64,000 nucleotides of DNA from Watersipora subatra (taxonomy: Eukaryota > Bryozoa > Gymnolaemata > Cheilostomatida > Watersiporidae): positions 57,372,010-57,436,009 of the forward strand of contig NC_088712.1 of NCBI RefSeq assembly GCF_963576615.1, written 5' to 3'. Below the pieces are notes generated by a model, which saw nothing but the letters and a program-made list of their open reading frames with translations, was not told the origin of the DNA and did no database searches. This document shows, piece after piece, positions 1,977 through 49,900 of the stretch (the stretch's first letter is position 1; each line of letters begins with the position of its first letter). The position numbers and the translations under genes are program-made.

Positions 1977-4900
1977 TTCCTGGGTTGGCATTCGCGGGGA
2001 AAGGAAATGGTGCACCTGGGAAGGCAGCCGGATTTAAGGGAGTGAATGGAGGCGCTGCATTGTTTCCAGGAGCTGCTGCGGGCTGGGCAGCTGGCTGGGG
2101 TGGTAGATGACCAACATGAATCGCTTGCCCTAAAATATGTAAGAGAACACAATTCCAAAGTTGTTTAACGAAATAACATGTGTGCATGTTGTTTGTATAA
2201 CAGGAACCAATAAAGCGCCAACAAAATCAGGCCTAAATCACCACCCAGCGCAGCTAAAAATTAAGAGACGATGTCAATAATCCTTCAATTAAAAAATACT
2301 GGCTGTTGCAAGTTTTTTGTATCTAATCCTTTTAATTTGCACCAACACGAGTTACCAACATGCTGAGTACAGAATTCTGACAACTCCAGCTATCATCGCA
2401 TACAGGGCTTATTCGCCGATCTTGCATTACAAAAGCAATAGCTGCAGGTACTTTATCAGATGTTTGTGAACATATCGTGTGTGGTAGAAGAAACATGCAA
2501 AGGACTTGTTGAGTACATTGCATCAGTTCGCATGAGAGCATCAGCAATATGATCACTAAACACTGATAACAATATGTACATGTATTTATTGCTGAGAGAG
2601 GACCTGCTAGGGGGAGTGAGCAATATGTACATGTATTTATTGCTCAGAGAGGACCTGCTAGAGAGTGAACAATATGTACATGTATTTATTGCTGAGAGAG
2701 GACCTGCTAGAGAGTGAACAATGTGTACATGTATTTATTGCTGAGAGAGGACCTGCTAGAAAGTGAACAATATGTACATGTATTTGTTGCTCAGAGAGGA
2801 CCTGCTAGAGAGTGAACAATATGTACATGTATTTATTGCTCAGAGAGGACCTGCTAGAGAATGAGCGAGAGTAGACCAAACCACTGAGCGTGACAAATTA
2901 TAACAAAGTTTTTTGCCATGCTGCTCGTGCGAGCCACAATCTAGCACAACATCGAGTGAGTGAGTGTATCATTTGTAAAAAATTTCTTATGAGAGAGGAA
3001 AAGTGTGTTGTTCTGTTGTTTTTTAGTTTACAAGGCAATTTCGTTGATGATCGGGTGCCATTTTTATTCATTATCACAATTGAAATACTAAATTGTCAGT
3101 TGCCGAGAGAAATAGTACAAACCATGACGCTATGTAATTGTGTAGAAAATAAGCCAAGGTGTAACCCCTTGCAACCAGTAATATTTACAATCATGACACG
3201 CACAAGGTTTTAGTGGCTTACTGAGATTTTTAGAATTGAACACTTGGGCAGCGACCTGCTGGTTGGGGTGGCCCCAAACATACTCAGGAGCTATAGCAAG
3301 CTTTTTGAGCATTAAGATCCGAAATATATATATAAATACTTATATAACATCTGAGGGTATTAAAACGGAGCGAGAAAAAAGGCAAAACATGAACACCTAT
3401 ATTACATAACCAATTGGAGAGAATCTTCTCTGTGGTGTAAACTACCTCATCACCAGAAAGACTGGCCAGAATTTGGATTTAACCCAAAATACATTGAAAG
3501 TTAGCACAAACCAGTGATAAATGCTCCTAAACACCTCAATAGTCCATTTTAGAACATATTATATGTATCCTGTTAGCACACCATTCTAACATAATTTCAT
3601 TGCCAAAAAATGAGCGATTCTTGATCAACGGTTTTATTATACGTGGCAGACGATTGATGTAGAAATGACAACATTCTTGCACAGCCCTAGAATCCAATCA
3701 AATGAATTTTTTTTTTAAATTTGAGATATATTTTTTTCCTATAAAATAGGATTATTTTGCTAGATACTTACTTTAATAATCTCTAAGAGCTAAGAAAAAC
3801 ATAACTTGAATTCCTGTCTGTCTAACAACCTTTCCGTAAAGCCAAGAAACGGTCTTACCTCTATGTTAAGAGTGAATGTCTGAGAATTTTATTGTGTCAA
3901 CTATTTGGCATTTTACCGGTTAATAATATGAAAACGGAAATTACTCGGAGCCATTTAAATATTGCTACAACAACTTTTCTGAATATCAAATTATTACATA
4001 ATGCTGTCACACAGCAGCTGTATTTAAACTGTTAATAATTGGTTTTAGTTGCATTTTAGACAAACATTAAAGATAAGAAGCCCTTGTGCATTTGAAGCTG
4101 TTAATATAGATTACTTTTGCAAATCATATGCATTTTTCCACCAGACCATTGATGCATTATTTCACTTTCATGATAGTATGTTAGTGTTTTATAGGATTTA
4201 TGGATATGCTAGGAAGCGATTACATACATTTAAAATAGTCTGAAAAAGTAATTTGTTTGCTATTCGACTTTTAAACTAATATCTTTAAAAGCCATACAAA
4301 CTGAATTTTCAGTGATTGACCATGAAAAGTGTAAGCAACCTTTTGGCAGTAAAAGGGCTAAAAGGTTGCTGCAGATGATCTCAACCAGACGACTTTTAAA
4401 CTATCCCACTGGTAGCAAAAAAAATCAGTACACTTTGTGAACGGCTAATCCGTGATAAAATATTCATATTATACTAAGACAGTTAAAAAGGTAATGAAAT
4501 AAACCATATGCAATGATCTCATCGTTCAAACACAGAGACACGTCTTGCTGAATATCTGTTGACCAAATCCCAGCTAGTAGTCTGGAACAAGGAGATTAGG
4601 AATCGTAACAGGGTGAGATAGTAGCCAATCCAATTTACTCAACTTATGACATGTGCTTAAGACAAGTTGACATGTTCAAGAGAAGAGAGTATGTTAAGGA
4701 ACAAGTATTGTACTGTTGAATCATGTAATGTCATACATATGAGACTGTTGTTTACAAGTGAGCGTTGGTGATTGATGACACCCAAATATGAAGTATGCAG
4801 AGTTCATATAACAAACCAGGCAATTAATTTACCAAGCCCTTTACCAAGGTCAAAGGAATGCGGTGCCTGGCAAGTGATTTCATTAAAACAATTTAGACTT

Positions 4901-7900
4901 GATATAATTTTAAAGCAGTTTTTTCACTAAAAATCGTGTGAAGGATAAGGACTTTCTATATATATATATTTTTCAGAATATATCTGTTTTCGGTATGTCC
5001 AGCTATAGCTATTATTAGAATAACTGTAGCTGGACAATAATGCTGACACAAAGTCATGGCTTACCGCCATTAGAAGCCTAGCAGTTATTCAGCAGCTTAC
5101 AGGAATTTTCCATTGGCAATATGCAGGCTAATAGCTTAAAAGGTACAGTTGTTTGACAAAGTTTTAAAACCTTTACAGTTGTTTTCATTTTTCTCTTAAT
5201 TTATTTCAATTACACAAAACACTTCTCTCATGATATGTAGTTTGAAAGTTAGAATGGGAAATATTGTTATATGTTAAATACAAATCAATTTTCTGTCCAG
5301 ACTTTTTTATTACCCGGGCAACGCTGGGCAGCACAGCTAGTTTGTTATAAAATCTAATAAACTTTATCTTACCTAATTCTAAAAATTTAGATAAGTTATA
5401 ATGAAAATTTTTTTGACAAGTTTAATTATATAAAAAGAAATCTCTATACTAATAAATAAAATAATTAAATCTCATGTCATTGTGTCTGTCTGTTAGTCCG
5501 AATAAACGCTGAGTTTCCACATTTATTACACTAACAGCCCCCTCCCACCATAATCTCCACCCACCCATCTAATCTTCACCTGAGCCAGTTTTTAAACTAG
5601 ATATACATACGCCCTCATAGTTTCTGCTTCTGTTTGCTGAATAGTCTTACACAGTTAGCGGCGTAAACTATATTACCGCCATTTTAATCAGCTTCTTAGA
5701 GAAAATCTAAACCTTGTTTAAATGAATGTCAGCCATATTGTATTGAATGTCAGCCATATTGTATTGAATGTCTTTGTAAAGGTTCAAACACACTGGGCGA
5801 TTTTATGGCATGCGTCATGAGGAGCGCGGAGATATCGCTGGCGTGTGCCTAAACACACTTGAGCGATTCACCAGCAAACGATAATGTGGGCACGCTCACA
5901 AACTGCCAATAAAATTCTGTATCATTAGTTTCTTCTGAGGTATTAATAAATTTAAGTCAATATGTCGCCTTCTAGGCAACGACGTAAAAAACTTCCACTT
6001 TTGTTATTATGCCTATCTCACTTTCATGGATTGTTCACTACAAGACATAAGAAAAAAACATTCTTGTATTTTTAACAGTACTATTTAGCGATTTTTATAT
6101 ATAAATTACTTTATAGCAATTTTTTATTTTTAATATGATAAATATTTACTAATCTAACGATGGTCAACCTGCGCAAGGCCTGACTCCCAAATGTTGGTTT
6201 TCAACTGGGTTTCTTTATATTTTTTGTGTGTTGTGTCATACAAGACTGGGTGTGCTCTCATTAAATCTATGAACAATTCAATGTTCGTTTTGATGATGTT
6301 TCAGCCGTAACTAAATACCAAAATGTTGTTGCTGTATGTTGGTGAACATCAATACGAAAAAATTACCAGCCATTGAATTGCATTCTGGGAAAAACCTACC
6401 AATCGAAATGCATCTCGTACATGATAATGTTGTAATAAAGAATGTCTAATGTTACCGCTCTGCACGAGCTCGCTGAGCGAGTTCTAGCGCAGAATGTTCT
6501 AGCGCCACACGCAGTGCGATATCGCACTAGATATCGCATAGTGTGTTTTCACCTAATGGTTTTAGATGACTTGATGGAAAACCTGTTACACTGAATGCAA
6601 CTGCTCACAACAAAGGTAAATTTAATGTGAAACCGATTTGGTCTCATATAGTATGATCTAACAGAATAAACAACAAACGCATTCTTACCTTAAATTTTCA
6701 GTTTACTACCATACAACTTATATGTGATGACAAGTCGAGACTACGAATTAAAAATTGAACTTTGAGTTGTACAAGATTAAAGATGTCTAGGCAAGTTGAG
6801 ACTACTTTGTCAACATGCTTTTCATATTTTCAACACAATGATACAGCACACCATCTTTTGAATGTGATCAATCCAGTAAATTATTTTGGTGCAAAGAGGA
6901 GTTGCCTACCCAAGGCTAAGCAAGAAAAGATAACTTTGCAGAATTGAGCATACAGATGACTTTCCGCTTTTGGTACATACAGTGCCAGCTGTTGGGCTTA
7001 TATCTACCATTTAGGTACATACAGTACCGGGTGTTAGGTGAATATCTGCCATTTAGGTATATACAGTGCAGGTGTTAGGCTAATATCTGCCATTTAGGTA
7101 CATACAGTACCGGGTGTTAGGTTAATATCTGCCATTTAAGCACATACGGTGGTGGATACTGGCCTAATATCTGCCATAGTTGAAGTATTATAAAAAAGAC
7201 CTATGGTACATAAGTCATTGCATAGCATTTGGACCTATGGTACATAAGTCATTGCATAGCATTTGGACCTATAGTACATAAGTCATTGCATAGCATTTGG
7301 ACCTATGGTACATAAGTCATTGCATAGCATTGGGACCTATGGTACATAAGTCATTGCATAGCATTTTGATCTATGGTACAAATGCTAAATGAAAAAAAAA
7401 GCCAAGATAGTAAACATGAAGAGGTAAAGATATGTCACAACTACCGCAATGTACTCTGTGGTAACCTAACATTTGTCAACCAACATGCAGATGCACAAGT
7501 TAAATGAATAAGAAAACGTAATAATTAGAGAATGTAAAAAGTGGACTTGTTAAATGTTTACACTGATAATTAAAAACCTAACCAAAAGTAAAGAAAGACA
7601 AAGTAAAGTACAGTGTGAACAGCCTATAGGTATGCAATACAATAGCTAACTACCAAGGAAGCTCGAGGGGAGTTCGTTTACTGACGGAGTCACTTAACAA
7701 CGCGGTCTTCAAAACATACCCGCAGTTGTTAAAGCGAGAGTCACTTATATCAGTAAAAGCATTCCGCGAGTTTCACATTTATAATGATTTAACACAATTC
7801 TAAAAATAATAAAAAAGTTGACAGGATATTTGCGGCTAACATTCAAATAGAGCTCAATAGCTCGATACCGTGTTGCAACAAATTCTTAAGAATATTCGTA

Positions 7901-10900
7901 AAACTTCCTCAAGCTTATGTTAAAGTTACTGCAAATATTCTAGCCATAATTTAACTGAGTAGTTTACTTCATACCATTCCTGGTCCAGAATTGTGATTCA
8001 AGCGATAGGCCCAATTAAATAAGTGAAACTTATTTAAGGTTATGGCAGGAAAGCACTTAAGAGCAGAGCCATCGAGTGTAAGAGTTGCGCCATGCTAGTA
8101 ACGCAAAAAAGTTGATCACGTGACCCTATGGTCGCCATCTTAGTTCCATTTACCGTATTGTACTCAAAGTGATATACGATATTTATTATAATTATCACTT
8201 TGATTGTACTGTTCTAATAGGATTTTAGTTGTTATTGTGGAAATTAAGGGCTGTTAGTTCACTCAGCCTCATCTAAACCTAGATTTTTTTGTGATGATTA
8301 GAAGGCTAAGTCATTACCATATATATTTTAAAGGGCTGTTAGTTCATTCAGCCTCATCTAAACCTAATGTTTTATGATTGAAATGCTAAGTCATTACCAT
8401 AGTTTAAACGCGGAGCTAAGGGGCAATTTTGAGCATTATTTGAGCGAGAACTACACCTATTCATACATTGATCATGCTGATTTGTTAATATTTTATATCT
8501 CAGTGTAATCGGTGTGTGTATGTATGTGTTGAACTCAAAGTGCAACAAAGAGGTTACTAAAAGTTGGCGGTGTAGTAGCAGCAGCAGTCAACTTTCCTTC
8601 AATCAACTTGCTTGTGGCATTAGATTAGATCAAGGAGTTTCACTCCATTAATAGATCAAAATGGTTAACTGCTGGGCAGTAGGATGCACAAACAGATCTG
8701 AGCACGGCTACACAATGCATTGCTTCCCAAGAGATGCCACATTGCGAGTTAAGTGGATACAAATGGTGAGACGAGAGGGTACCATCACCTCTTCATCACG
8801 ACTTTGTCACGTAAGTATTATATTTACAGAATTCATTGATAGTGAACATAGCTTCCGCATGATTTAACTGTTTATTGAAGTTAACTATAAATACCAGCAT
8901 AAACATAATATAGGCCTAACTAATATACAGATATTACTTTTCAGGCACACTTTGAAGATCAGATGTATGAGCCTAACCGCAAAGATGGCTTGAAGAAACT
9001 TCGGCATCTTGCTTATCCCACTCTGTTTCCACATCGTTCGGCTCCCAAAAGACGAAAGCCACCTTTAAAACGAGGTGCAGATGACTCAGGGCCATCGATT
9101 GCTTATTCCTCTGACCACGACTATGCAAGCAGTAAGCCATGCTCAACGCCTGAAGAAGAACCTAATGTTTCAGTTCTGGAGGCACCATCTTCTCCTGGTT
9201 TGCAAATTTGTTTTGTTCATGTTTGCTTTGACATACAATTACATTTATCTTGAGTAATATGTGTTTATAACATTTTCTGTTAGTAGGCTTGCGATGATCA
9301 TGCAAGTAAGTATAGTCAGTGGAAATGTGTGTGAGGAGTGCTGAGATTTAATTTATTCTTCTGGATGGGACTTAACCATTGCCTCTGTGCATTACTAATT
9401 CTTTGTGTGTCTTCTTTCACATCTAATTTGTACACTTTGCTAATCCTAATATGCACAACTTAACAGAACTCATAACTTGTATAACCACCTTCTGATTATA
9501 TGTTCCTCTATCTTCCACTCATCAAAACTTAACTACAGCGCCTAGATATACTGAGCTTGCATTGACAAAATTATTTCATTTTACTTTTAGTGGAAATGAA
9601 TACAACTAGCATTAGTGAAGATGACCAGGATACAATAAACACCTTGAAGAGAAAGATTTCTTCAGTAGAAACTCAGAATGCTAAGGTATAAGACTTTTGT
9701 AGATTTTATAAGCTATATTTGATACTGATGTGTATTACTTGATGTTTGATGTAATGGGTATATATTAAATTTGATTTACTATTTTTGTGTAAGGTACGAA
9801 AGAGATGCTTTGATCTTTGAAAGAAGCTTAAGCAGTCGGAGTCAGCTGTAGGTAAAATGTTTAATGAGGATCAGCTTTAAGCGCTTCGACGAAAGTCTAC
9901 AAGAGGACTTAAATGGAGCCCAGGAACCATTAAAAAAGGTCTGCAACTAAGATTTGCATGTGGTTCCACAGGCTACAACATGTTGCTTGAGCAGAATCAA
10001 CCTCTTCCTTCTATTAGAACACTCCAAAGACATATGCAGAGAGTTCCATTTTCATCTGGTGTACTCAAGGGGGTGTTTGAGTATATGAAAGTTAAGGTAA
10101 AGTTCCGTAATTACAGACTAAGATGTGGTGCTTCGCTCTCTGAAAAACCCATGGTGATTAAATCAAAAATGGCTATTTAAAATTATAGCATTATCTTTGG
10201 CTAAAATGTGAAATACTTTTGGTGCGACTAAAGGGCTTTAGTGTCCACAGGTTGAGAAAATGTCTCCCTTTGATAGAGACTGCTGCCTCACACTAGATGA
10301 GCTGCAGATTACTCCAGCTAAAGAGTACGATCGAGCTAGCGGAAGCATCATGGGTGATGTAACTTTACCTGGACACAAAGGAAAAGCCACGCATGGGCTT
10401 GTTTTCATGTTGGCAGGTATAATCTTAGGTCTTAGATTTATTAACAAACAAACAGAAATCATGTTGCAAATCGTTTTTCATGTCGGTCATAGAGAGTATG
10501 CATCCTCGGGTTTTGGGCTAGCTTGCAAGTCAGAAGTCGTAGGTCAATATGTGGAATTTGATTCAAGTCACAATTGGTGACTCGTTTTTGTTGTTTTTAT
10601 TCCTGTTATTTTAGATATGTTGCAAATTAATTAGTTTGCTAAAGTTTATTAAACAACTATGTCTATGCTTGCAGGGCTGGCAACAAGGTGGAAACAGGTA
10701 GTAGCTTATTACTTTACAGGTAATTCTGTGCGAGGAGCTGTTTTCAAGCCAATCATCTTGGACATTATCAGCCATGCTGAGAGCATAGGTTTACATGTAG
10801 TATCTGTTACCTCAGATATGGGTTCCTCTAATCGAGCTATGTGGGCAGCCTTTGGTATTATCGTTAACAAGTTTTGCAAACCTTGCACAAGTGTTACGCA

Positions 10901-13900
10901 TCCTAGTGATGCTAGCAAACATCTATATTTTCTTGCAGATGTTCCGCACCTTATCAAAAACCTGAAAGCATCTTTGCTCAGTAATGGGTCATTCAAGCTT
11001 CCTTCAGATATTGTTCAGAAGTACAATTTGCCTTCTGATAGTGTCTCTATTAGGCCAGTGAAAAGGTTGATTGATTACCAATGCAGCAAAGGGTTGAGGC
11101 TTGCTCCTAACCTTTCTGAATCTGCTTTAGAGCCTAGTCACTTTGAGAAAATGAAAGTGTACAATGCATTGAATTTTTTCAGTCATAGTGTATCTTGTGC
11201 ATTGAAACTCATGGTTGAATATTCGAAAAGCCCAGATTCTGAGCTTAATGTTCTCTATGTAGAAGGTGAGATAGATGAGTTTGAGTCAACAGCATGGTTC
11301 ATAGAAAAATGTAACAAATGGTTTGACTATATGTCGAGTAGGCAGCCAGTAATGGCTTTATCTAACAATAATATGGAATCGTACAACTTAGCTGTAGAGT
11401 CACTTAAAGAGTTCATTGTAGTTATTCAAGGTTTGAAGGTAGGTGCAGGTGATTGGAAACCTGTGCAGACAGGTGTGATTTTATCCACAACATCTATACT
11501 TGACATGTGTGAGGGATTACTCCAGTCTCACAACTTTCTTCTCACTTCAAGATTTACTCAAGATTGTCTTGAGAATCTATTTAGCTCAGTTAGGATCAAG
11601 AATCCAGTTCCAACACCACTTGAGTTTAGAAATAATTTGAAAATTATTATGACGGCTCAATTTTTGAAAGTCCCTCAAACAGGTAGCTATGATATTGATG
11701 AAAGTGACTATCTTGGTAACCTATTAATTTCAGATACTCAGCCCGAACCAGCTGTCGATCAGACAACATCGCAATACATGATGTCATTGTCTTTAGAATC
11801 GAACATTTCTGATGATGAGAAGAATTCTCTCTACTACGTTTCAGGCTACTGTTTAAAGTCTCTTAAAAAGCGAAAAATGGTTTGCCAAACATGTTTTCAA
11901 TCTGCATCAACTTCGGATGCATTAGATGGGGTCAGTAAGTTGGTTCAACTTAAGGACTATAAAAAGGGGGCTTTATGCCATGTTGCGGAACCCGTATATA
12001 ATGCTATGCTGAAATGGGAAAAGATTTTCAGGGCTAATGTAGAACAAGCATCACATAGAAACATCCGGAGAGCTCTGATCGATGGCTGTGGTAGGGTTGC
12101 CAGCATAGAGGACATTGTGCTCAAGTGTCATAACTTACCATCTAAGTTGCTTAGCACTTTTATAGACACTAGGCTTAGGTTTTTTTGTAAAGACCAAACA
12201 AAAAAACTAGGTCAAAGTCAAACTGTAGGATCTACCAAGGGGAGCCGCTCTACATTCATAAGGTCAATGGCCAAAAAGGCAAAGTAATCATCCATACGTT
12301 TACTTCGGTTCATGTTTCCTAACCTAGTGTCTGTAGCAGCTCTACTAGTAGGTGCTAATTGCTATAAATCCGTATTAACAATATTTATATATGTGACATT
12401 ACTGTGTTTCTAGGATGAAGGTTTCTAGGAGCTCCACTACTAGGTGCTAATTGGTAATAAACCCGTATTAAAAATAATTATATATGTATGTTTCTAGCAG
12501 CTTCATTAAATCGACCATATATATTATATACTTGATATATTTGGTGCATTTGAATATATATAATTATGTTGTTTGCAAACCCTTGCCCAACCACATGACA
12601 TATGTAATTTGTCTGTTTAATTTTACTGCATTTAAATATGTGTGTGTACGTATGCATGTTATTTGCAAATATATGTGCATGTGTAGAAACCTCAACTCAG
12701 TTTTTATGGACTTGTGCACTCTTTTTTGCTTGATTAGAGGCAATAAGGCAGTCAAAGATATTATATCATGTTAACTGAAGTATCATATGTTAGCAAGGGT
12801 TGCCTGTCATGCAAACCTATTGGCCAATATTCACTTACGTGACTTTTTATTGGCTAGCAAAGACCATTGCCTATAACAATGAAATGAAACCATTGTGCAA
12901 AGTGGAACTAAGATGGCGCCCGTAAATTGTTGGTGGCGTAACTCTTACACTCGATGGCTCTGCTTAAGAGAAAAGAGTGCAACTATGAAAACATGAGAAT
13001 AAAATATAAAAACTAGGAAAAGACAACTCACATGGATTGAACATAGGTGGAGCCTGTGCTGGAGCGGGAGGGACAACAGGTGCAACTGGAGCGGCAGCTG
13101 CTGCGGCAGCCGGAGGAGCTGCTGCAGCAGGGCGGACATTCAACACCTAAAAATATCAATACTTAAGATTACATAGCTTAAGGATGTTTAGATATGTCTT
13201 TAATAAAAAACACTTTTAGAAGTTTTCACACCTCGGGACACAAAATTAATCCATTCCAATATTTGCTTCATATGTCGATGCAAGCATACGTTGGAGCAAA
13301 TATTCTTATACGAATGCATTGCTTTTTGTTTAATTCATTCCAGAGCTCAAAAAGAACTGTTTGTAGCATTGAAATGAATGCAGTATACAAACCATATAAA
13401 AATTATAAGGACTATCTAAATTACATGTAAAAAGTTAATAAAGTAGCAACCATTAAAAAAGGTTTTTATTGCCACTTTATCTTAGATACAAAGCGTAGGC
13501 TTGGTGATGCGCAAGTACAGTGCGAGAGTGAGTAATAGATACTTGCAGTTTACACTCCAATTTACACTAGATATTGTTTAAATTAATTTATATCTTTGTA
13601 TTGCTTGTGTTTTATTTTTACTTTTAATCAGTTTTTGGCTTTTACATGCATATATAAGATGGTTTGAAAATGCCAGGGTTTAGATGCCATTTCTTAAAAC
13701 TTACTTCAAATATCGAAACAAATTTCCTTAAACTTTTATTATATTTCCAAAAGAATTTGTAACTCGAATTGGCGCAAAGTTGATGTTTGACTTTTTTTTA
13801 ATACACACCAAACAGATACATGGCAACTCAGCAAACTCATAAAGAAAATTATTAAAAATCTAGAGATCAGTAATCCAAATACATTCAGGCACTGTTAAAT

Positions 13901-16900: not shown

Positions 16901-19900
16901 TGCCTATAAATCCACGAAATAACAACATGTAGGGCTAGATGCGTACCTCATGGTGAGATAAAGAGGTCTGATGGCAAACAGAGGAAGTGTGTGTACTTTA
17001 CTCATTATGATAACAAATGCCGTATAGAGCAGAAATTTCCAACCACCTGCAAACAAATGTCACTAGCATCATAAGCTGCAATTTCATGTAAATGTCAGAA
17101 GATATATTTTTAAAATAAGAAAATACGGTGATCCAAATATGAAATACCATTCTTTTACATATTTCAAAATAAGAAATTTCGTAATCCAAATGTAAAATAC
17201 CATTACTTGACACAATTAACTAACAAGTAATTTCGTGATAATGCAAAAGAAACGACATGAAATCATATACACACCTATCCTATGCAGCGACTGACTGATT
17301 TAACAAGAGGTTGGCAAGGATGGACATATTAATTATCAACTTATGCATAAACCCAACCCGCTGTGCTAAGTAAATTTTTAAAAGTTCATTAGGTAGCAAT
17401 AACCTACTTGTAATAAGCTCGAGATAGAGAAGATAAACAGCCTTGTTCTCCCACGGGTTCTCATCGTAGAGATCAATGCAATGAAGTAAGTATTTGACCG
17501 TCACTGTGAATACTATGGTCAACAGAACAGCATACTGCAAACAAGCATTAGAGTTACATCCGAAGACAATGGCACACAGTGTATTATGTTGGTAATTGTC
17601 AGAGCACATGTATACAAGAGAGGATAACTCTGAAATAGAGAAATAGACTCCCATTGATCAATTTGGATGAACAAGAAAAGGTAGGAGAGTATGTGCCTTG
17701 GTATAATCGTATACAATAAGTTGAAGAAGTATTACACCACTAAAAGGAACAAAAAAAACAGGGAACCAATAAAAATTGATTGACTTGTTGAAAAAAAGTC
17801 AGACGAAAAACAACAGATTACCAAATGTGCAAAACAGCTAAAAAGATATACAATCATACTTCGACTTACGAGCTTAATGCGTTCCGAAACTGAGCTCGTA
17901 TGTTAATTTACTTGCATGTTGGTGCAATTTGTTTATATATAGAACCATTAAATATATATTGATTGATTTCCATACTCTAAAAAATGCAAATAAAACACTC
18001 AAAACAAGGTATTGTAACAGAAAGAACTTGTTGGTTATTGTTCTAATTTACCGCATACTTTCAAAAAGCAACAATTAAAAAATAATGCAAGGAAATGTGA
18101 TTAATTGAAATGTAAAATTAAATACATACAATCGCAGCTACCGCTAGCATTTGCCAGGGATGGAGATATAAGTTATCCTTCATTACAACAGTTGACTTTG
18201 ATAAATTTGGATTTTATCAATGTCTTAAAAGACAAACTTAGAGGCAAACATAAAAGCAAACTTTTATTTTTAACTTAACCTAATTAAAATTTCTTCGGCG
18301 TTCGTAGTTCGAAGTTTCTCGCTGGTTAGCTAATTTTTCCTTTGTTTCGCTTTCGTGACTAGCCGGCCATTTAAGATAAACCTATCTAAGGACGATTTCC
18401 TTTGTCGCCCTTTCAACATGTTGCGATTAGGACGAACACAGGTGTCGTCACAAAAGGTTAATGCACGACCACTAGCCAACTTGTCTGAATGTCTATTTTT
18501 ATAGTTTTGATAGATCGCACTGGCCTTTTCACATAGCATCGTTTCAGTTACGCTGTCACCGGCCAATTGTTTATCTTTAATCCAATGTCTAAGCAGTCTC
18601 TCCATCAGCGGTCGTGAAGATCGCTGCGCCATTTAGAAACTATGGTTTGTCCTTTTGCGAACTAAATGCCCTGAATATAATCCTTTGATAATCATGTTTG
18701 ATAATTGTGGATGTATTTCTGTCATATTGCTGAGCTAGCTCAATCACACATACATATTTCGCATGTTTCAATAATTTTCCGTTTAATATCAACTGTTATC
18801 ATTCGCTTTTTTTTCTGCATTATCTTTCATTTTACTGGCAAACTTTTGGTCAACGCAGAGTACTTTTAATTTACATAATTCTGCACTGAAAACCCCACAA
18901 AAAAACACGATACAAAAGTATAACCTGAGCAGTTGAAAAATACAGAGTGATGCTGTTCTCATAAAACACCGCCGGCATACTTGGCAACTGACTCACGTGC
19001 TCGTATCTCAAACATGGCTCGTATGTTAGTGCTAAAACTTGCTTAAAAGCTGGCTCGTATCTCAAGTTTTTCGTACGTTGGAGCACTCGTAAGTTGAAGT
19101 ATTACTGTATTGGCAGTAAAAAAAATTAAGATGGAAGCGGCAAGCTGTAAGGAACTTACTTCAAAACCAAATACGAGTTGAGCAGACGCTCCCTCTGTTA
19201 TGGTCGTGTGATACGCTCGCCTCATAAAGAGAATATCAACAAGTGCGAGACTGGCAAGAAGACCTACAAGAAATCATTTCACTAAACTTAATTTTTAACA
19301 TTTTGTTGTTTTGGAAATACTTGAAGCTTCCTATGTAAAGTACCTCAAAGTGGAGAAAACTATGTTTTGCCATCAAAATTCTGTACATATTCTTTAAATC
19401 TTTGTACTTTACAATCACACCGCCGATAAAAACCGTAGAGGCAGAGATACATGGCTGAGTTGGCCATACGGCTGTTCAGAACTTGAAACTTGGTTAGTTG
19501 AACAATACTGAAATTGTTTGCCTCAATTCAAAGTTATACAGGCGGCTTTGCGCTACTAATCTAAAAAATTTGTTAGCCGATTGTGTCCTCAACGTGGACC
19601 TATCTCTAAGCTAACAAATCCATATGACGTTCAGTCTTCGACTGAACAACAATGCGATCAAAATGAGTTCTTCTGAAATATAAAAACCCCTACATGTACG
19701 TAAGGTATTTTTTCAAGATAAAACACAGTGCATGGCTGACAAACGCAACAACCCTTGTATAGCAATTCCTGCCAATTGATATAGTGCGCTCTGGGAATAT
19801 GACACTAAATGACAGGTTTACACAAGTGCTTTCTTGGAGATAAAATATGAGTCACATACCAGACCTTGCGTAGCTATCATTGCCAGCGCCTTTCACTACT

Positions 19901-23824: not shown

Positions 23825-26498
23825 AAGTGTAACTAAAAAAACCTCATAGTCTCATATTTTGATGATTTTTAATATGTTGTTGCCCATGTTGAAAAACGCT
23901 TAAATCCCAAATTTTGATCTTCTAGGGTCATCGGTTCAGGTGCTATGAGGAATTGAACTTTGATCATTTCTCGCCCGAGTTTGATGGCATAGCACATCTA
24001 GCTGACTTTAGACTCATATAAATTCAAGAATATACAAGTTGAAGGTCTAGATTTTTTTGTGTCTGCACAAAATTTCTATATTTACATAAACAAATAGGTT
24101 TGAAATTTTTCGAATGAATAATGTGGGACATAACTCCGACCAAAAATGACCGAAAATGCTATTTTAGCGACTATTCAAAAGCAATTATCACTCCTAACAT
24201 ATAATTTGCCGTTTTTTCTGTTAATATTTTTGGATTCCTCCAAGCCCCAGCTATCCAAAACTAGTCTCATCTTCTCTGTAGATGCATCAGATCATCGTCT
24301 AGAAGCCATACAAGATGAGCGTCTTTGTCAAAATACTGCAAAAGTAGAGGTTAAGGTAAACCAGTGGTTTCAACAAAGTCACACATTTTTCTTATGTTTT
24401 ACACAAAATAGTTTTGTGACGCGGAGTCTTATGTCTCATCTGCATATTTAACATAGGCAGATTTCATTAAAGCTATCAAAAGATTGTGTTTCAGACTGTA
24501 AAATGCTTAAAATTGAGTTCCAAATGCCCTCCAAACACCTTTGTAAATCGCCTTAATTAAATGAGATTATCTCCCCTTGTCAAGCTTTAACTTGGCTGAT
24601 TATTATCCTATCAAGTTCAAATTTGCTTTGTGGTTTGTGATTGTGGTAGTAGTGAGCTTTTAAAAATTTTTTTAACTTACATTCCTCAATGTTATCAATT
24701 GTTGTAGCTTCAAATGCATATGTTTTGCCCGAGTTGGTGGTAGATGGCGGCGCCACAGCTAATAGAAAATGCTCTGTAGAACACGCTAATAGAACATACA
24801 TACATTCCAGAGAACGATCTTTAAAATGCATACATACATTCCAGAGAACGCTCATCAGATTCATCCAAGAAAATCTACTTCAAGTGACTCATGTGAATTA
24901 TTTCAGTGATGGATTTGGTGCCCAATACAAGAATTACAAAAACTTTGCAAACTTATGTCACCATAAGCTTAAATTCAATCTTACAGCATCTTGGAGCTTC
25001 TTTGCCACTTCACATGGAAAAGGTGCGCGCGATGGGATTGGCGGGGTAGTCAAGAGACTGGCCACCCGTCACTCCAAGCAGCTGGTTGAGTCAGGGAAAA
25101 AAGACTTCTCAGTGCTTATCAACTGTACAAGTATGCTGTGTACGCTGTATATGTTGTTACAAGTGTATCAACTGTAAAAGTTGCAGAACAAGCAGCGATT
25201 TTGGAACCAAGGTTCAAAGCAGCACAACGAGTCATTGGTTGTCGGGACCAGCACTGGTTCAAACCATTCAGTAGAACAGCCATTGAAGTTTGCAAACTTT
25301 CACCACTGGTTGATGAAAAATGTATGCTACAAGGATACAAAGTTTGGAAGACTGATGACGCACATGTTACCAGCAATACCTTAACACCTCAACCTGGACA
25401 ATATGTGGCCTGCATACATGATGGTCGGTGGTAGATGGGGATGGCAATTGGCTTTGATCAAGAAAACAATGATGTTAATGTGAGATTCATGCACAAAAGC
25501 TCAACAAACAGTTTCACATGGCCAAAGAGATGACATCTGCTGGGTACCACAAGAGCATGTTCTATTAGCTGTGGCGCCGCCATCTACCACCAACTCGGGC
25601 AAAACATATGCATTTGAAGCTACAACAATTGATAACATTGAGGAATGTAAGTTGAGAAAATAATTATATTAAGGCTCATTACTATCACAATCACAAACCA
25701 CAAGCACACAGTAAATTTGAACTTGATAGGATAATAATCAGCCAAGTTAACGCTTGACAAGGGGAGATAATCTCATTTAATTAAGGCGATTTACAAAGGT
25801 GTTTGGAGGGCATTTGGAACTCAACTCAATTTTAAGCATTTTACAGTCTGAAACACAATCTTTTGATAGTTTTAATGAAATCTGCATATGTTAAATAGTG
25901 TAAAACATAAGAAAAATGTGTGACTTTGTTGAAACTACAGGTTTACCTTGACCTCTACTTTTGCAGTATTTTGACAAAGACGTTCATCTTGTATGGCTTC
26001 GAGACGCTGATCCGATGCATCTACAGAGAAGATGAGACTAGTTTTGAATAACTGAGGCCTGGGTAAATTCAGAAATATTAACAGAAAAAATGGATAATTA
26101 TATGTTAGGGGTGATAATTACATGTTAGGGGTGATAATTACTTTTGAATAGTCGCTAAAATAGAATTTTCAGTCATTTTTGGTCGAAGTTATCTCCCACA
26201 TTATTTATCCGAAAAATTTGAAACCTATTTGTTTGTGTAAATATGAAAATTGTGTGTAAACGCAAAAAATCTAGACCTTTAACTTGTATATTCTTGAATT
26301 TATATGGGTCTAAAATCAGCTAGATGTGCTATGCCCTCAAACTCGATCGACAAATGATCAAAGTTCAAATCCTCATAGCACCTGAACCGATGACTCTAAA
26401 AGATCAAAATTTGGGATTTAAGCGTTTTTCAACATGGGCAACAACATATTAAAAAATCATCAAAATCTGAGACTATGAGGTTTTTTTCAGTTACACTT
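23825..26498. mobile_element. DNA transposon-like element with ~950-bp inverted arms
   Basis: The left arm, about 23825-24775, is an inverted copy of about 25552-26498, starting AAGTGTAACT at each outer end. The arms are similar over their whole length with scattered substitutions and small indels. The 0.78-kb centre holds a broken transposase-like frame whose C-terminal coding part extends into the right arm and is therefore mirrored in the left arm. An 8-bp direct repeat, CTTTGGTG, occurs at 23791-23798 and 26501-26508 and could be a target duplication, though it does not abut the left arm. The element ends about 280 bp upstream of the SYVN1 start codon. Confidence 0.8.
24788..25646 (+). 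pseudogene. Transposase-like fragment with FFATSHGKG motif, disrupted
   Basis: The readable parts contain NYFSDGFGAQYKNYKNFANL, WSFFATSHGKGARDGIGG and VKRLATR. I recall this motif set from uncharacterised invertebrate proteins that look transposon-derived, but I cannot name the superfamily. The region around 25300-25420 (QPGQYVACIHDGRW) and 25480-25640 (FTWPKR, then LLAVAPPSTTNSGKTYAF) matches the C-terminal part of the same protein type. The frame changes near 25100, has a TAG at 25432-25434, and shifts again near 25533, apparently by a 2-bp loss. The N-terminal portion is missing. The fragment seems to end at a splice-donor-like site at 25647. It is not expected to be functional. Confidence 0.6.
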
Positions 26499-30800: not shown

Positions 30801-33800
30801 TTGGTAAAATTTGATATTTTACAAACCTTTATAAAGGTCGTTAACAAGAATATTTTGCCACTGATGATGATAATAATGACGCCTAAGAACTACTAAATGT
30901 TGATGTTTGTCTCTATGGCTTCGAACAAAGTGATATTCTACAGCAATAAAAACCGTCTCCATAGCCGTTGGGCAAATAACTTTTCGAATAAATGATGTTG
31001 AGGTCGAGTTATCTGAAGCAATTTATCATTGCGTGGGAGCGGACCAAACAAATCCGTTCGAGTTAACCTTGTGTTTGAGATGAAATGTTACATTATATCC
31101 GAGGGCGAGTTATCCGAGTTTGACTGTACTTAGCCGCGGTAAGTTCCTAAAAAGTTGGGACGGCTCAGCCGGCCAAACACCCCAGAGAATACAGGCCTGG
31201 TTCACCAATAAGAAAAAAATTTCAATTTGGGACTAGTTTGTAATTGTGAACCGCAGGTAGAATGGTGTGAGCGAGGTCGATAATACAATTTGATCGCTTG
31301 TTGCCATTTGTTTCTTGGACTATCAATGAACAAAGCTATTTAATTTCGCGTTTTCGCTTGTTCGTTATGATAGTTTAGTTTCGCACATGAAATTTTCGCG
31401 AGAGCATGACTCTGCGAAAACGCGAAAGTTAGATGAGGCGAATACATAAGTGTCCTAGGGTAGTTCAATACTCTTATATTGTCAGAGAAAAGAAAAAAAT
31501 ACTACTACTCAGGGATCAATAAATCTATAATATATATGATAAAATGAGAAATAATAAAAAGCAAAAGATGCTATATGTACAGCAGTACACTACCGTACAT
31601 ACTGTCAAATGGTTAGGCCGATTCATTTCAGATATTCTAGTTTATTATAGGTTTTTAAAACCTTGAAATTTATTACTAAAATATTAAATAAGACTTTAGT
31701 ATATATACGAAAACAGTAAAAAAAGCTTTAATATATAAAAGTAAAATATACCATTTCACCAAATGCTGACGAAATGGCCTAACCTAGGCTTTCACAATTC
31801 TGAGATTTATTTAATGACAAATTCATTTGTCAATGGGTTTTCCAGAACAAATCACCATCATTAAACTAGGACTACTTAACTAGAACTCATTAAACGAGGA
31901 CTACAATGTACCTGTGGTGTTTACCAAACAGGGAGTTGAGAGAGATCCTAGTCAGCTGAGGGTACTAACTATCACACTAAGTAAACAGACTTGTCTCGTC
32001 ATGTAACAGTGTGCTAACGAATTGGATAATGTCATCATGAATGTCATCCTTGGCATGTTGTTTTCATGTGGTGCAAACAGTGATAAGGCATTAAAATAGC
32101 TCAGATTTCATATCAGAAAACTTTAAAATCGAGTTAAGGTAGTTAACATATGAAGAACTTGATACCGGCAAAGTTCTTCATGAAGGGGTGGTCACACGAG
32201 AGCTGAAACGAACTAAACGCCTCAAAACGACATCGCTGTCAGTTAGAAAGTGTTCGGCCAAAGACATATCTGGCCGAAGCGAACCATTTCGGTCCTGCTC
32301 GAAATTTCGTGGCCGAACCCTTGCTCTTATTGGCTGATTAAAATTTTAGCAAGCATGCGTCACATTTCTCCTGAAGTGCGTGTGAGTAAAGTTAAAAAAG
32401 AAATGGGACGATGCTTTTATTTCGTTAAATAAACAACATAAAGCAATTTACGACAAGACTCACCCAGACTTGTGATTGAGTTGCATAAATGTAAGATGTT
32501 GCACTTAAGTTTTGCATAAATGTAAGAGAATGGTTGTGATTTTTTTCGTGCAGAATATAAGTAATGTGTCATACTAATCCTGATGAAGTATCGTTGATTG
32601 ATTTATTTATGTAAAACCACAGTACTATGATAAAGACTGTTTTTGTTTGTTATGTAATCAGCATTGAAAAACATTCATATGTTAATAAAAATGTACCTAT
32701 GTTGATGGGAAGGGTTGGCAAAGTCTTTGTATCGAGCAATTTATTTTGAGCAGCTGAACGATCTTTTGATAAATCTGCTGCGTAATTATAATTAATAATT
32801 GTTTCTCAAAGGTTTTTGTTAACAATACAAATATTTAGCTCAAATACATAAAAACTACCAATGAAGCAGTGTCCTGTATGGTATCTAGGAAGCGAAGTGA
32901 CTTCAGATGCCGTGTGACATGTGGCTTAGCCGAACCAAAGTAAAACAACTTCCGAATCAAACCAAACCTAAGTCGGTTCGGCGCTCGTGTGACCACGCCT
33001 TTACTGTAGCTATAAGATATTTTTAACATCAAAAGTATTTGTTTTTTGGAACATTTTAAAAGTATGTGATTAGCTTCTACATTAACGGTATGATTTAGAA
33101 GCAATCGATAGCTTGTTTGTTGAGTATGCTTATTCAGAATATGCAGCTCTCTAGTTGCTTACTATAGACCGATATAAGACCATTTGTTAGCTCTTGAAAG
33201 TTGTGTGTAAAGCGGAGTGTAAAGTAAGCAAACATGTGCCTGATATTAGGTAACGGTAGAGTCAGCTAGCAGTGGCAGCGAAAGTCGCCCAACTATTAAG
33301 CTACTTGGCCTTGGCTCTATGGTATTGTAGGCCAATAGATTTACTCACTGTTACAGGCTGTTTACAGTCAGAGAACAAGTCCTACAAAAGAACAAAACAT
33401 GCTTTCAATGTCTGGTCATATGTCAGTAATATTGGCATCAGATAACGCTGTTTTATAACATTCATCTGTGAATGACTCATGAAAAACTTTTAAAATGTTG
33501 TCATCGTGAGAGCTTGATAGTTTTTATTAATAGAAGTAAAAACTGAATTTTGTTGGACTGAGAGATTGCCTTTTTATTCTAATGAGTGAACGCTAGCTAA
33601 GTTGATAATAGGATTTATGAAAAGGTAAGAGATGAAATTGATGATGAAGTTGACGATCAGGTTGACGATCAAGTTGACGATCAGGTTGACGATCAGGTTG
33701 ACGATCAGGTTGACGATCAGGTTGACGATCAGGTTGACGATCAAGTTGACGATCAGGTTGACGATCAGGTTGACGATCAGGTTGACGATCAGGTTGACGA

Positions 33801-36800
33801 TCAGGTTGACGATAAAGTTGACGATCAGGTTGACGATAAAGTTGACGATCAGGTTGACGATAAAGTTGACGATAAAGTTGTTGATGAAGTTGTTGATGAA
33901 GTTAATGAAGTAAAACGTTTGCACCATTTAAACCACGGGTATTAACTTTCTAGCAGTAGTTATAGAATTAAACCAATCGGTTAGTGTGTACATCTTGTGG
34001 AGAATGTTAGCAAAAAGTCTTCCTTCATACAAATAAGAAATTTAAGACTGTCCGAAAAAATTACCTCTTCTCAGAAATCATCCATCTGTTTAAACTTATC
34101 AGCATGCGCTCTGCTTTACGAATAAAAACTTTGAATGGACAATTTTCCGATAATCTAGTTGAAAAACGAGGGATTTTAATAGCATTATTTATAGTCACAG
34201 CTGTTTTCCGTCGATATTTTGCAATGACTTCAAATCTGTTTGTCTGCTTTTCATGTTTTGAAAATGTTGAACAAACCTGCTACTTGATCGAAATTATACG
34301 AAAAGTTATTCAAATCCAAATATGTAGTGTTAACTGCTACTGTCAATGTGATAAAAATGTGTGCAGTCAGTTAACTGTGAAGGAAACTTTTCCTTGGTTG
34401 CAAAATCTTTTCAAGTTTAAGCAAGTCTTGGAATTACACAATGTTATTCGCACAACAATATATTTGGGATTGAATACATCTGGGCCCGGTATCTATAACC
34501 GTGGCGGTGAAAAGGTTTCACAATCTTGAATATTTCTTTTCCCGACTGGAATTCTGGCGTGTGGGTATCGGACAGAGAGACTTTTGAAGCTATCGAGCAA
34601 AGACAGTGATACTTTTGAAGCTATCGAGCAAAGACAGTCATACTTTTTGTTCTCAAGTAGAGATTTGCTTGCTAAAAGTATTTCTAAAACATTTTTGGAA
34701 CACAAAACCACAAGCCTTCCTTATGACAAAGGGAAAAAACCATGTCCAGCCTGTTATCATTTGTCATTTCCCATCCAATTAATTTAAAAAAGGCTGTAAA
34801 CATGCTGCAGGCTACAACGAGATCACATTCTTTAGCGATTGAAAGAATTCCCAACGCACTTACGAGTAGAAACTGTTTCCTCTCTTCTCTATCTTCCAGC
34901 TCCAGGATTTCATCTAAGTCAACATCGCAAGGATATGTCTCTCCAGAGCTTTCCTACATAAAGTAAAAGCATGACAAAGCGTGATCAGATGTTATAAAAA
35001 AACTGCTTAATAGATGTATATTTATAGGCAGAAGCAGCCACACCAGCGTACCAACTTGCTCAGCAAAACGCTTGCGACGCTAGGCTCGGCAGCATCTGTT
35101 CACATAAAAGCTGCATCGCTAAACATAATCGCGGAATCAAATAAAATGTTCGCTCGCCATGTCGTTTCTATAATGGTGACCTTCACCTGTACAGTGCATT
35201 TCGAGAAGGTTTTGCCTGCGGCCTTTTGCAAAAATTGAACAGCGCTAAACTATTGCGATGCCGCCGGCAACTACCGGCGGTCCTCGGCGGTCCTCGGCGC
35301 ATAGGTTCCCATTTCACCGCTAATAGCCTGCGGTGCAGTCACTGTGCTTTGTGACGCATATGGGAACCAGACTTTACCAAAAGCTACGCTTGAGCGCTCT
35401 GTCATGTAACACACAAATTGATAATTTTAAGATTTGATTTTCAAACAAAATTAGTCGATAAAAATTATTTCCCCTTTCTAGACATATTATTGGTCATATA
35501 TAATGAAAACTTTGAGTAAAAATGTTACAAGCAAGAAATAAAAACGAATAAAATTTTAGAGCTTGAGTCCGGTGGAGGTCAAGACACATACAATGCTTCT
35601 CAAAGGCAACAGCAGAAGTCACGCTGATTGGGGAGGTCGTGTCTTTAAGAAGAGATATGTAAGTTGTTGTAAGTTCATGCATTGTATTGGTGTTGTTCTT
35701 TGAACACAGTGAGGTTACTGCAGGTCATATTGTGTACCAGTAAACCATATAATTACGTCTTAAATGTGAAAATAATCCTATTTTATGTTTCAATAAAGAT
35801 TGATTCGGTAAAAGTGCAAACAAAAAACCTGAAAAAGGAAGTTCAGTACCTCCAACAAGGTTAACTCTTTCACTACCGCATCAAATTCACTATTCTGACT
35901 AAATTAATTCCAACAGATTTTTGAAAATCGATATACCGCTAGTATTTACGCAATATATCGAGAATCAATGCAGATATTGTTTTAGTGTAAAACGCATCAT
36001 ATTCAAAACAAAATTCCCTACAACATAAGTAAAAAATTGTTTAGTGAATCCCACCCTCGCAAAAGTTCTGGCGCTTCCTTTGTGTTGAAAAACACTGAGT
36101 TTATTCTTGCCATGAAAAAAGCGGTTTGGTTTTGCCATTTTAAAAATTGATTAGAAATGGAATTGCTGAGCAAAAATTTTTTTGATTGGTTGCATATGAT
36201 TAGCAACAAGGTTGTTTCATTGGAGACAAAATTTGATTTGTCGAGCTAATGTGTAGGCTTCGTAATGAAAAGAAAAGTGAAACCATATTGACAAGCCGAT
36301 ACATTGGCTCATGTAATAGAAGTACAGTCGGTAAGCCGATACATCGGCTTATGGACTGTACTTCTATTACTGCAAAAGCCGATACATTGGTTTTTGATAG
36401 CGGAAAAGTTAAGAACCACTGCTATAGAAGTTAGACTGTACTAGCTACCTACCACTTCTATAGAGGTTTGACTCTACCAGCTACCCACTACTGCTATTAA
36501 TAGAGGTTTGACTGTACTAGCTACCTACCCCTGCTATAGAGGTTTGACTGTACTAGCTACCTACCCCTGCTATAGAGGTTTGACTGTACTAGCTACCTAC
36601 CACTGCTATAGAAGTTTGACTGTACTAGCTACTTTCTGACATTCATTTTGCTGAATCACTAGAAACTTTCCTTTCATCTCAGGAATTTTATCAGCTGATA
36701 AATCAATAAATTATTTACTGAAGACTTGCTCAGTGTAAGAAGTAGGGTTTATGCATTGTACAGTAGAGGCTCCTACAACGTAAATAATCCGTTCCGATAA

Positions 36801-46483: not shown

Positions 46484-46996
46484 ATTAGTCTGGCTTCTGA
46501 TGAAAGTCAAACTAGAGAATGAAAAATCCTTTCAAAAGCACGTGCATTTGTATACATGTACTGTACCGCTCACGAAATCGGAGTGACGATTTACCTTTAC
46601 CATACAATTGTTTATAAAAAAAAAAAAAAAAAAAAAAAATTATTTTAAAAAATATTATTTCAACATAACATCACAAAATAATATGTAACTTTACGAGTGT
46701 TGAGTCACGTCTTACCCGACCAATCACAATCAGCGATATCAAATAAATCGGGGAGGGTAATAATGTAGCACAAATTCCAAGCTCGTTAATATTGAGATAT
46801 CGGCCCTCATTTACAGCTTTGTAGCATTTTCCGATCCGTAGCTACCATTAAATGGCTTCCGGTTTGATAAAACGACAGCTGTTAGAAAAAAATAGCATAT
46901 TTACAAAAGTATTTGTGTGCTAGATTACTAAAATTTACCTTTGTGTACTAGAATACTAAAATTCACTGTGTATGAGAATATTATGAAAGTACGACT
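46484..46996. promoter_or_regulatory. Shared 513-bp upstream region of PPP1R14 and the MANSC gene
   Basis: The two start codons diverge across this spacer. It includes a run of 24 A at 46616-46639 and an AT-rich centre. I see no convincing TATA box for either side. The bidirectional promoter role is inferred from position only. Confidence 0.5.
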
Positions 46997-49900
46997 ATGT
47001 TTGTTATTCACGTATTTGGCTCGGCTTTCATGCCGTATTTATTAACTGGGCTACTAGTTTCTGTCATAGGAGACAGTGATATAAGTAGCATATTCGGTAA
47101 CAATGTTGATACGGCTCAGGCTTGGTCTAAGCTATTTGAATTGGAGAATTGTCCGATGCCAGAGGTATTGCCTGGCACAATCATCATGGTGAACGAATCG
47201 GTAGCCGCTGGTGCTAAGTTTATGTTAAAGCCAAATGCTACAAGTCGTTTCGAATGTGAATTTGAATGTTGTTATAAACAACACAAAGGTTGTAATGTGG
47301 CGATTTATTCTGCTGATAAGGTATGTGAAATGCTTTGTTGCATAGCAGTGAGGTTTATATATTATTAAAGTTGTATAAGCTTTTTTACTTGCATTCTAAT
47401 GATTGAGAATATCAAACAAGCAAAATATGGTGATAATACCTACGTAGGCCTAAACATAAAAGCTGTTCGTATGCTGAATTATTCAGCACAGTCAGATGGC
47501 AGCTTCTAGCATTTAAATTTAAATTTTTTTACGATTTTAATTGATACTCATCCAAAATTGCCAAGTTATAAGTTTTTTTTGCAAAGCATTTAATCTAAGA
47601 ATCAATGGGTTAACTAGTTGTATGCCTGACATTTCTCAAATGGCTATTAACTATAGATTTGTTTTCATAATGCTGCTCATTTGTCTTGGAACCCAAAATC
47701 TTTCATGTTTCCAAATGTGTGATTCTTTTAATTTCTTGAATTTAACAAAAAATTGTATAGTTATGCCTAACTAGTTAAATTGAAAAAGCATTTTGTAGTG
47801 AAGTGTTTTAGTATGTGTTTACTGGTCCATTTTCTTCAGTTGTAAATATTGCACCAGACATGTTAAACATGTTCTATCAAGAGGGCAATGCTGGAAATTT
47901 GTTGTTTAGATTTTCAAAGTCATGTTCTGTAGAAAGCTGGTTGTTACTTGTTTGACTGCGGCACACCAAGCAAGTGTAAGTTTGACCAGCACAATGGCTA
48001 TTCAGTGAGCATAATAGCCAAAGAGATCTCTAGTGAGGCGGATGTATTGGAAACTACCCGTAAAACTGCTCCAGTTTCCACAACCAATATTCCTCCAAAG
48101 CAACGTATGTTTATCAACAAACTCTTCGAGAACAGTTTGTCTCCATATATTTTTATGCTTAGTAAGCATATTGCTGGTCTCATTAAATCAGACATAAAAT
48201 ATGGATAGTATAAAGTCAATCATGTATTAAAATTTAGAAGTAACGCAGTTTTCAAACTTAAATGTTTCACTTTTTGTTGGAGCATCTTCATAGCAGTCTT
48301 ATTTTTTTATATTTTTATGACTTTATATTTTATAAAAAATATATAAAAAATATTTGTACATTCTACTCAAGATATGTGTGTGGCGAGTTGTAAAGCTCAA
48401 AATGCTCCCTAAATGGCTGCGCACTTATTTCATCTTCAAAAATTGGTTAAAACATCCTCACTTATTTCACCTCAACGACTTGATCGAAGCATTATCACGC
48501 ATTTCATCTCAAATATATGGTTAAAACATTCTCAGTCATGGAGGTAGGGACATGTCATATTATAACATCGTATGCAAATTGTGGCACCAGAAAGACAAAG
48601 TCTAGTTTATATGAGCATAGTGTGTTAGCAGAATGTCCGTAGCAAATATTATTAATTTAATTATCACAGAATTACTCTTCGTTCTGTGGAATACATACGC
48701 AAGATTTTGTAGCAACAATCATCTATATGGTTCAATCAAATGGTCTCAAATTATGCAACAAATTAACAAGAGATTCTACACACATAAGCAGTTATTTTTT
48801 TATTATTCTTATTCGTAAGCTGACTATAAGGGTCTGTTGGATTCTGTATGCAGTTTTACTCCTATTTCATCTTATTTGCTGTTGAAGGCTGGTAGGTCTG
48901 TAACAATAGTAATCTTGACGAACTTTTGATAGTAAATAAAAATGTTGTAATCAAAAAACTTTCAAACAGGAAGGATTTTCATTATGAAGTTAGCGAAGCC
49001 CTGTAGTTTCTTCAAACTCAATGGAAATAGCTAGCATGTAGCCTACATTTTACTGGTTAGGTATGTGATAGAATAAGCGGAATAACATTTCTCCTCATCT
49101 TTGTCTTCTTACTAGAGTTGATTGCTTTGGCTGTAGAACACCTGTTGGATGGATGTCGTCCAGGAGTAGACAAATGTGTGACAGACAATACCGAATGCTC
49201 CAGTACAGGGTTTTGCAGATGTAAAGAAGGATTTCATCCTAAGAACGGAGTCTGCAGTGAGTACTCTTTTTCTTTTTGCAAGTAGCAAGTTACTCCTTAA
49301 TTTCCTGTTAGTTTTTAAAGTAAAAAAGTGACATGCAAACAGAAAAAACTTATCATTTTTCTTAGACTGGTTTACTTGTAGAATAACATTTTTTGTGGTG
49401 CCATTTGTTTTGAACAAATGTTATAGTGTTTCTGTTAAATATATTTCTAGGATTTTGTTTATGACTAATAATGAATACGCTAGTCAGTAATTTGGCACTG
49501 GGTCAACTAAACGAGGCAAGATTTAAAATTCCACCAACATTATTATTGCTAAGTTGTAATTACCTTAATATAAACGGATTTAAATATTTTTATGTCAAAA
49601 TGCGTGAACCTTTCACTGGCCCACTGACATATAAGCAGTAACACAGTCCTAATATTTTCTTCATTTCTACAAAGTATTTGAGTAAGCAGGCGTAGTCGGC
49701 TGTGCCTAGCCTTACTTTTGAGCTGTCCAATTTTAGTTTCAGAATTAATAAAAAGCAAAGTTTCTGCTGCTATGAAAATGCATAAATCTTTATCGAGTCT
49801 CCATAAGAAAAGTTGAAAGATTCTTATTTAACAACTGTTTAACTAGTTAGTAACTAGTTAACTTTTTAACTAACCAACCAGGATATGTAATTAATTTACA

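Follow-up and report, generated by a model that had tools for sequence, protein, structure and literature searches.

What is the 4.9-kb insertion found within the HRD1/synoviolin gene of the bryozoan Watersipora subatra, and could it still move by its own means? The gene lies in the 64,000 nucleotides of contig NC_088712.1 (positions 57,372,010 to 57,436,009) analysed here, called the window, and the insertion occupies positions 8064-12962 of the window (4,899 bp). It is very probably a cut-and-paste DNA transposon of the P superfamily, placed antisense in an HRD1 intron, which has kept its termini and is now non-autonomous.

Termini, transposase domains and insertion site

The element is flanked on both sides by the same 8 bp, CTTAAGAG, a target-site duplication (TSD) of the length typical of the P superfamily. 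Its terminal inverted repeats (TIRs) also suit that superfamily; they start with CAGAGCC and differ at a single position, 24, leaving 28 of 29 identical. Comparison of TSD and TIRs fixes the ends exactly where the preliminary description of this DNA had placed them, and the 29-bp repeats with one mismatch and the exact 8-bp duplication that it listed were both recovered. When TIRs matching at 27 or more of 29 positions, with the first 12 exact and an exact 8-bp flank, were sought in 20 windows drawn from a first-order Markov model, all 20 were empty. The real window gave two matches, one being the P-type element itself and the other spanning 24561-25776 (see below).

The duplication and the CAGAG terminus would also suit a hAT element carrying a THAP domain by chance, since hATs leave 8-bp duplications and often begin with CAG. 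The coding sequence argues against this. The modelled gene (8661-12287) comprises six exons with GT-AG introns and consistent phases, giving 860 codons including the final stop, its exon boundaries picked by eye (Table 1). Five exon pieces, from exons 1, 2, 4, 5 and 6, were scanned against Pfam. Exon 1 alone encodes an N-terminal THAP domain (PF05485, 31.9 bits against a cut-off of 23.9, covering profile positions 1-55 of 87), and exon 2 holds what we take to be the end of that domain (C-x2-H, across the splice) and a YPTLFPH box, likewise taken to be such. The N-terminal part of a TNP-like RNase H (PF21787) was found in exons 5 and 6, above the curated cut-off, and a predicted GTP-binding insertion domain (PF21788, 38.8 bits against 24.8) in exon 6. 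No hAT family was found in the five pieces at E values up to 1. In searches of the PDB, exon 6 matched the Drosophila P transposase 6P5A, as did a stretch joining exons 4 and 5 to the start of exon 6 (E 2.8e-08). The aspartates of LDE and SDMGSSN and the glutamate of QDCLENLF fall on 6P5A residues 230, 303 and 531 in alignments counted by eye; D230, D303 and E531 are the catalytic residues of P transposase (PMC7776569). With a catalytic part that matches the TNP-like RNase H, the GTP-binding insertion domain and P transposase itself, a hAT origin is exceedingly improbable, and the Pfam domains, 6P5A matches, 8-bp TSD and defined ends uphold the earlier assignment to the P superfamily.

The host gene, on the minus strand, was identified as HRD1/synoviolin by three of the ten open reading frames (ORFs) scanned in the window, which match PF25563 (TPR_SYVN1_N), and by one with a RING finger, for which synoviolin 8KES ranked first in the PDB (E 3.5e-23). 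The exons on either side of the element are proline/alanine-rich, as is expected of the HRD1 tail, and phase-consistent; both points were judged by eye, and the identity of the gene comes from exons further right. The synoviolin matches in more distant exons of this strand, together with the phase-consistent exons at the flanks, bear out the proposed location inside an HRD1 intron. Provided that no small exon between the flanking two has been overlooked, the intron measures about 10.9 kb. The splice donor and the right duplication are about 60 bp apart, and in the window no recognised HRD1 exon is disrupted by the element.

Table 1. The P-type element, its modelled transposase gene and the HRD1 intron around it. 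Positions are those of the window. TSD, target-site duplication; TIR, terminal inverted repeat.
Feature	Position	Strand	Basis or remark
TSD, left copy, CTTAAGAG	8056-8063	.	Same letters as right copy
Left TIR, 29 bp	8064-8092	+	28/29 against right TIR
Left subterminal inverted repeat, 25 nt, offset 64-88, putative THAP-binding site	8127-8151	+	88% complementary to 12900-12924
Two tandem copies of subterminal unit, left side	8246-8401	+	Direct repeats D1 and D4, 89% identity
Exon 1, most of THAP domain	8661-8810	+	PF05485, E 2.3e-07; splice model
Exon 2, end of THAP domain, YPTLFPH box	8945-9197	+	Splice model
Exon 3, start of probable coiled coil (by eye)	9591-9685	+	Splice model
Exon 4, end of zipper and helix-turn-helix region, two in-frame stops	9794-10096	+	Splice model; 6P5A alignment from its residue 126
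Exon 5, N-terminal part of RNase H, first catalytic Asp (LDE)	10251-10416	+	PF21787, E 1.1e-06; Asp on 6P5A residue 230
Exon 6, rest of RNase H, predicted GTP-binding insertion domain, C-terminal part, stop	10675-12287	+	PF21787, E 8.5e-13; PF21788, E 1.4e-09; 6P5A, E 1.5e-14
Two tandem copies of subterminal unit, right side	12329-12487	+	Direct repeats D2 (79%) and D3 (90%)
Right subterminal inverted repeat, 25 nt, offset 39-63	12900-12924	-	88% complementary to 8127-8151
Right TIR, 29 bp	12934-12962	-	28/29 against left TIR
TSD, right copy, CTTAAGAG	12963-12970	.	Same letters as left copy
HRD1/synoviolin intron containing the element	2130-13031	-	GT donor 13031-13030, AG acceptor 2131-2130, read by eye

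The broken reading frame

A THAP-type transposase gene of about 860 codons had been reported, and the model reproduces it together with two in-frame stops in exon 4 that had gone unmentioned: TGA at 9818-9820 (codon 175 of 860) and TAA at 9878-9880 (codon 195). The first coincides with the first aligned position of the 6P5A match, so that it breaks the modelled exon at the margin of recognisable homology. The second lies inside the alignment, so that homologous coding sequence is itself interrupted. The frame, in the assembly and the model, is not the uninterrupted one of an autonomous P element, and the copy as represented there is not autonomous. The preliminary description had called it nearly full-length and a terminus-defined reference for its group. 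It is nearly full-length in structure, with a transposase frame interrupted twice, and it can serve as a reference for the termini, not for a working element.

The long coding exons and the retained catalytic residues might suggest instead a domesticated THAP9-like host gene and no transposon at all. TIRs and an exact TSD at the flanks, and two stops, the opposite of what a conserved host gene would hold, make this reading hardly credible. The copy might still be autonomous if splicing, or the true genome sequence, avoided both stops; the other exons are all open with consistent phases, and the P transposase alignment starts only with the first stop. As that alignment crosses the second stop, which could be skipped only by deleting homologous sequence, we think autonomy very unlikely.

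Several results weigh against a disabled P-superfamily transposon. A splice acceptor further downstream in exon 4 might skip the stops, the first more easily than the second. The RNase H C-terminal family (PF21789) scored 12.8 bits, below its cut-off of 24; the 6P5A alignment spans this region. Exon 2 and the piece of exon 4 scanned (9881-10099) had no significant Pfam family, and the fold of exon 6 predicted without an alignment was uninformative (mean predicted local distance difference test score, pLDDT, 33.5). No second copy was found within the window, where BLAST against the rest gave three matches of 18-19 nt (E at least 0.18) and a search with 21 bp of the TIR, allowing up to three mismatches, found the element's two ends only.

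As a disabled P-type transposon, the copy would now be mobile only with transposase supplied in trans. The intact TSD and TIRs favour the fairly young insertion suggested earlier; the two stops count mildly against it and allow some age. Clean ends and stops would be compatible if a copy that was already broken had been mobilised in trans. Broken transposase frames are common in the P group. Every copy of Galileo sequenced up to the date of that paper has stops and/or frameshifts (PMC3688188), and among Anopheles P elements three reference elements are open, the others having stops and frame shifts (PMC1562414).

The first stop would leave a product of 174 residues, with the THAP domain and part of the probable zipper. 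KP is a repressor in Drosophila, and this product, transcribed antisense inside HRD1, might act in a KP-like manner by binding the paired subterminal repeats that related elements carry, a role we consider very improbable.

Subterminal repeats and known P-type systems

The subterminal inverted repeats noted earlier are present as a 25-nt pair (Table 1). Their best 18-nt core matches at 17 of 18 positions, a score equalled in none of 200 shuffles. Measured from the nearest end, the THAP sites of the P element lie at 53-63 bp (5') and 41-51 bp (3'); in Galileo the distance is about 70 bp (PMC3688188). The repeats described here occupy the same zone, the right one closer to its end, as in P, and we infer that they are putative transposase-binding (THAP) sites. 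Further inward, repeat units on both sides are reminiscent of the repeated sites of Galileo; Tandem Repeats Finder did not report units at 8246-8401 or 12329-12487.

By analogy with the P element, the THAP domain of the THAP/RNase H transposase would contact the subterminal repeats, GTP bound in the insertion domain would be used (PMC7776569), and a DDE-type active site would cleave the DNA at the terminal repeats. The ends would then be joined to target strands 8 bp apart, giving the 8-bp duplication (PMC7776569).

The P element of Drosophila melanogaster is alike in its THAP, zipper, helix-turn-helix and split RNase H with a GTP-binding insertion domain (PMC7776569), and in its 8-bp TSD, TIR of about 30 bp and THAP site closer to the end at the 3' side (PMC7776569, PMC3688188). 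The W. subatra element is longer (4.9 against 2.9 kb), has six exons and TIRs beginning CAGAGCC, carries a 25-nt subterminal repeat where P has one of 11 bp, and differs further in the repeated units near both ends and the broken frame. Zebrafish Pdre2/THAP9 shares a P-type transposase, a TIR beginning with CA, subterminal inverted repeats and an 8-bp TSD (PMC10983969), but its 13-bp TIR, CATACCTGTCAAC, is unlike the present one after CA, and its subterminal repeats are of 12 bp with 400-bp spacers (PMC7776569). Galileo of Drosophila resembles the element in having interrupted copies (PMC3688188) and differs in its TIRs of 0.5-1.2 kb, against 29 bp here. The P elements of Anopheles gambiae (AgaP) also make 8-bp TSDs, and three reference elements encode 876-895 amino acids (PMC1562414); they have three exons, with an extra intron in one element, against six here. 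P-type miniature inverted-repeat transposable elements (P-MITEs) are known as relatives in A. gambiae.

Searches beyond the window added little. Viral contigs and prokaryote genome contigs were searched for sequences related to exon 6, with three and four pattern matches, respectively, none of them confirmed by tblastn, and the exact 21-bp TIR was absent from the viral contigs; for an animal transposon, negatives from such collections carry little weight. Among the literature text matches listed, the TIR occurred in an 11-letter form only, its 13-letter form being absent, and no transposon titles were present.

Other features of the window and significance

The HRD1 gene also holds, between its exons, a minus-strand ORF (18330-18632) with a Tc5-type transposase helix-turn-helix domain (PF03221, E 5.8e-06), probably a second transposon remnant. 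Upstream of the first recognised HRD1 exon, the 24561-25776 match was considered as a second element, its duplication being either of 8 bp or TTAA, and rejected as a false positive, as its flanks are part of a longer inverted repeat reaching about 23825 and 26498. This repeat is nearly continuous, with arms of about 0.95 kb whose main pieces are 89-97% complementary, and no duplication of 7-11 bp was found near its outer ends. Its core contains ORF fragments at 24656-25177 and 25090-25434; the former had no Pfam or PADLOC match, and none of its 26 pattern matches in viral contigs was confirmed. The structure appears to be a foldback-like element or an inverted duplication.

Elsewhere in the window, comparison by eye shows that two ORFs on opposite strands (57440-57775 and 57854-58186) have some 60 residues of peptide in common, ITNGATDITSQPSRI.., and form a divergent inverted duplicate. 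A tandem array at 33631-33900 is built of 12-bp-based units and is open in several frames, with VDDQ repeats in one. Plus-strand ORFs within 46976-50125 encode a MANEC domain (46976-47368) and a low-density lipoprotein (LDL)-receptor class A domain (49895-50125), which would fit a gene for an animal membrane protein. Neither the Rfam nor the tRNA scan of the window gave a match.

The element is otherwise an ordinary disabled intronic transposon copy of a well-known kind. It documents a P-type element of an animal by its exact termini, its subterminal repeats and a modelled exon structure, and the placement of the subterminal repeats, similar to that of THAP sites in P and in Galileo, makes them a concrete prediction of where its transposase would bind.
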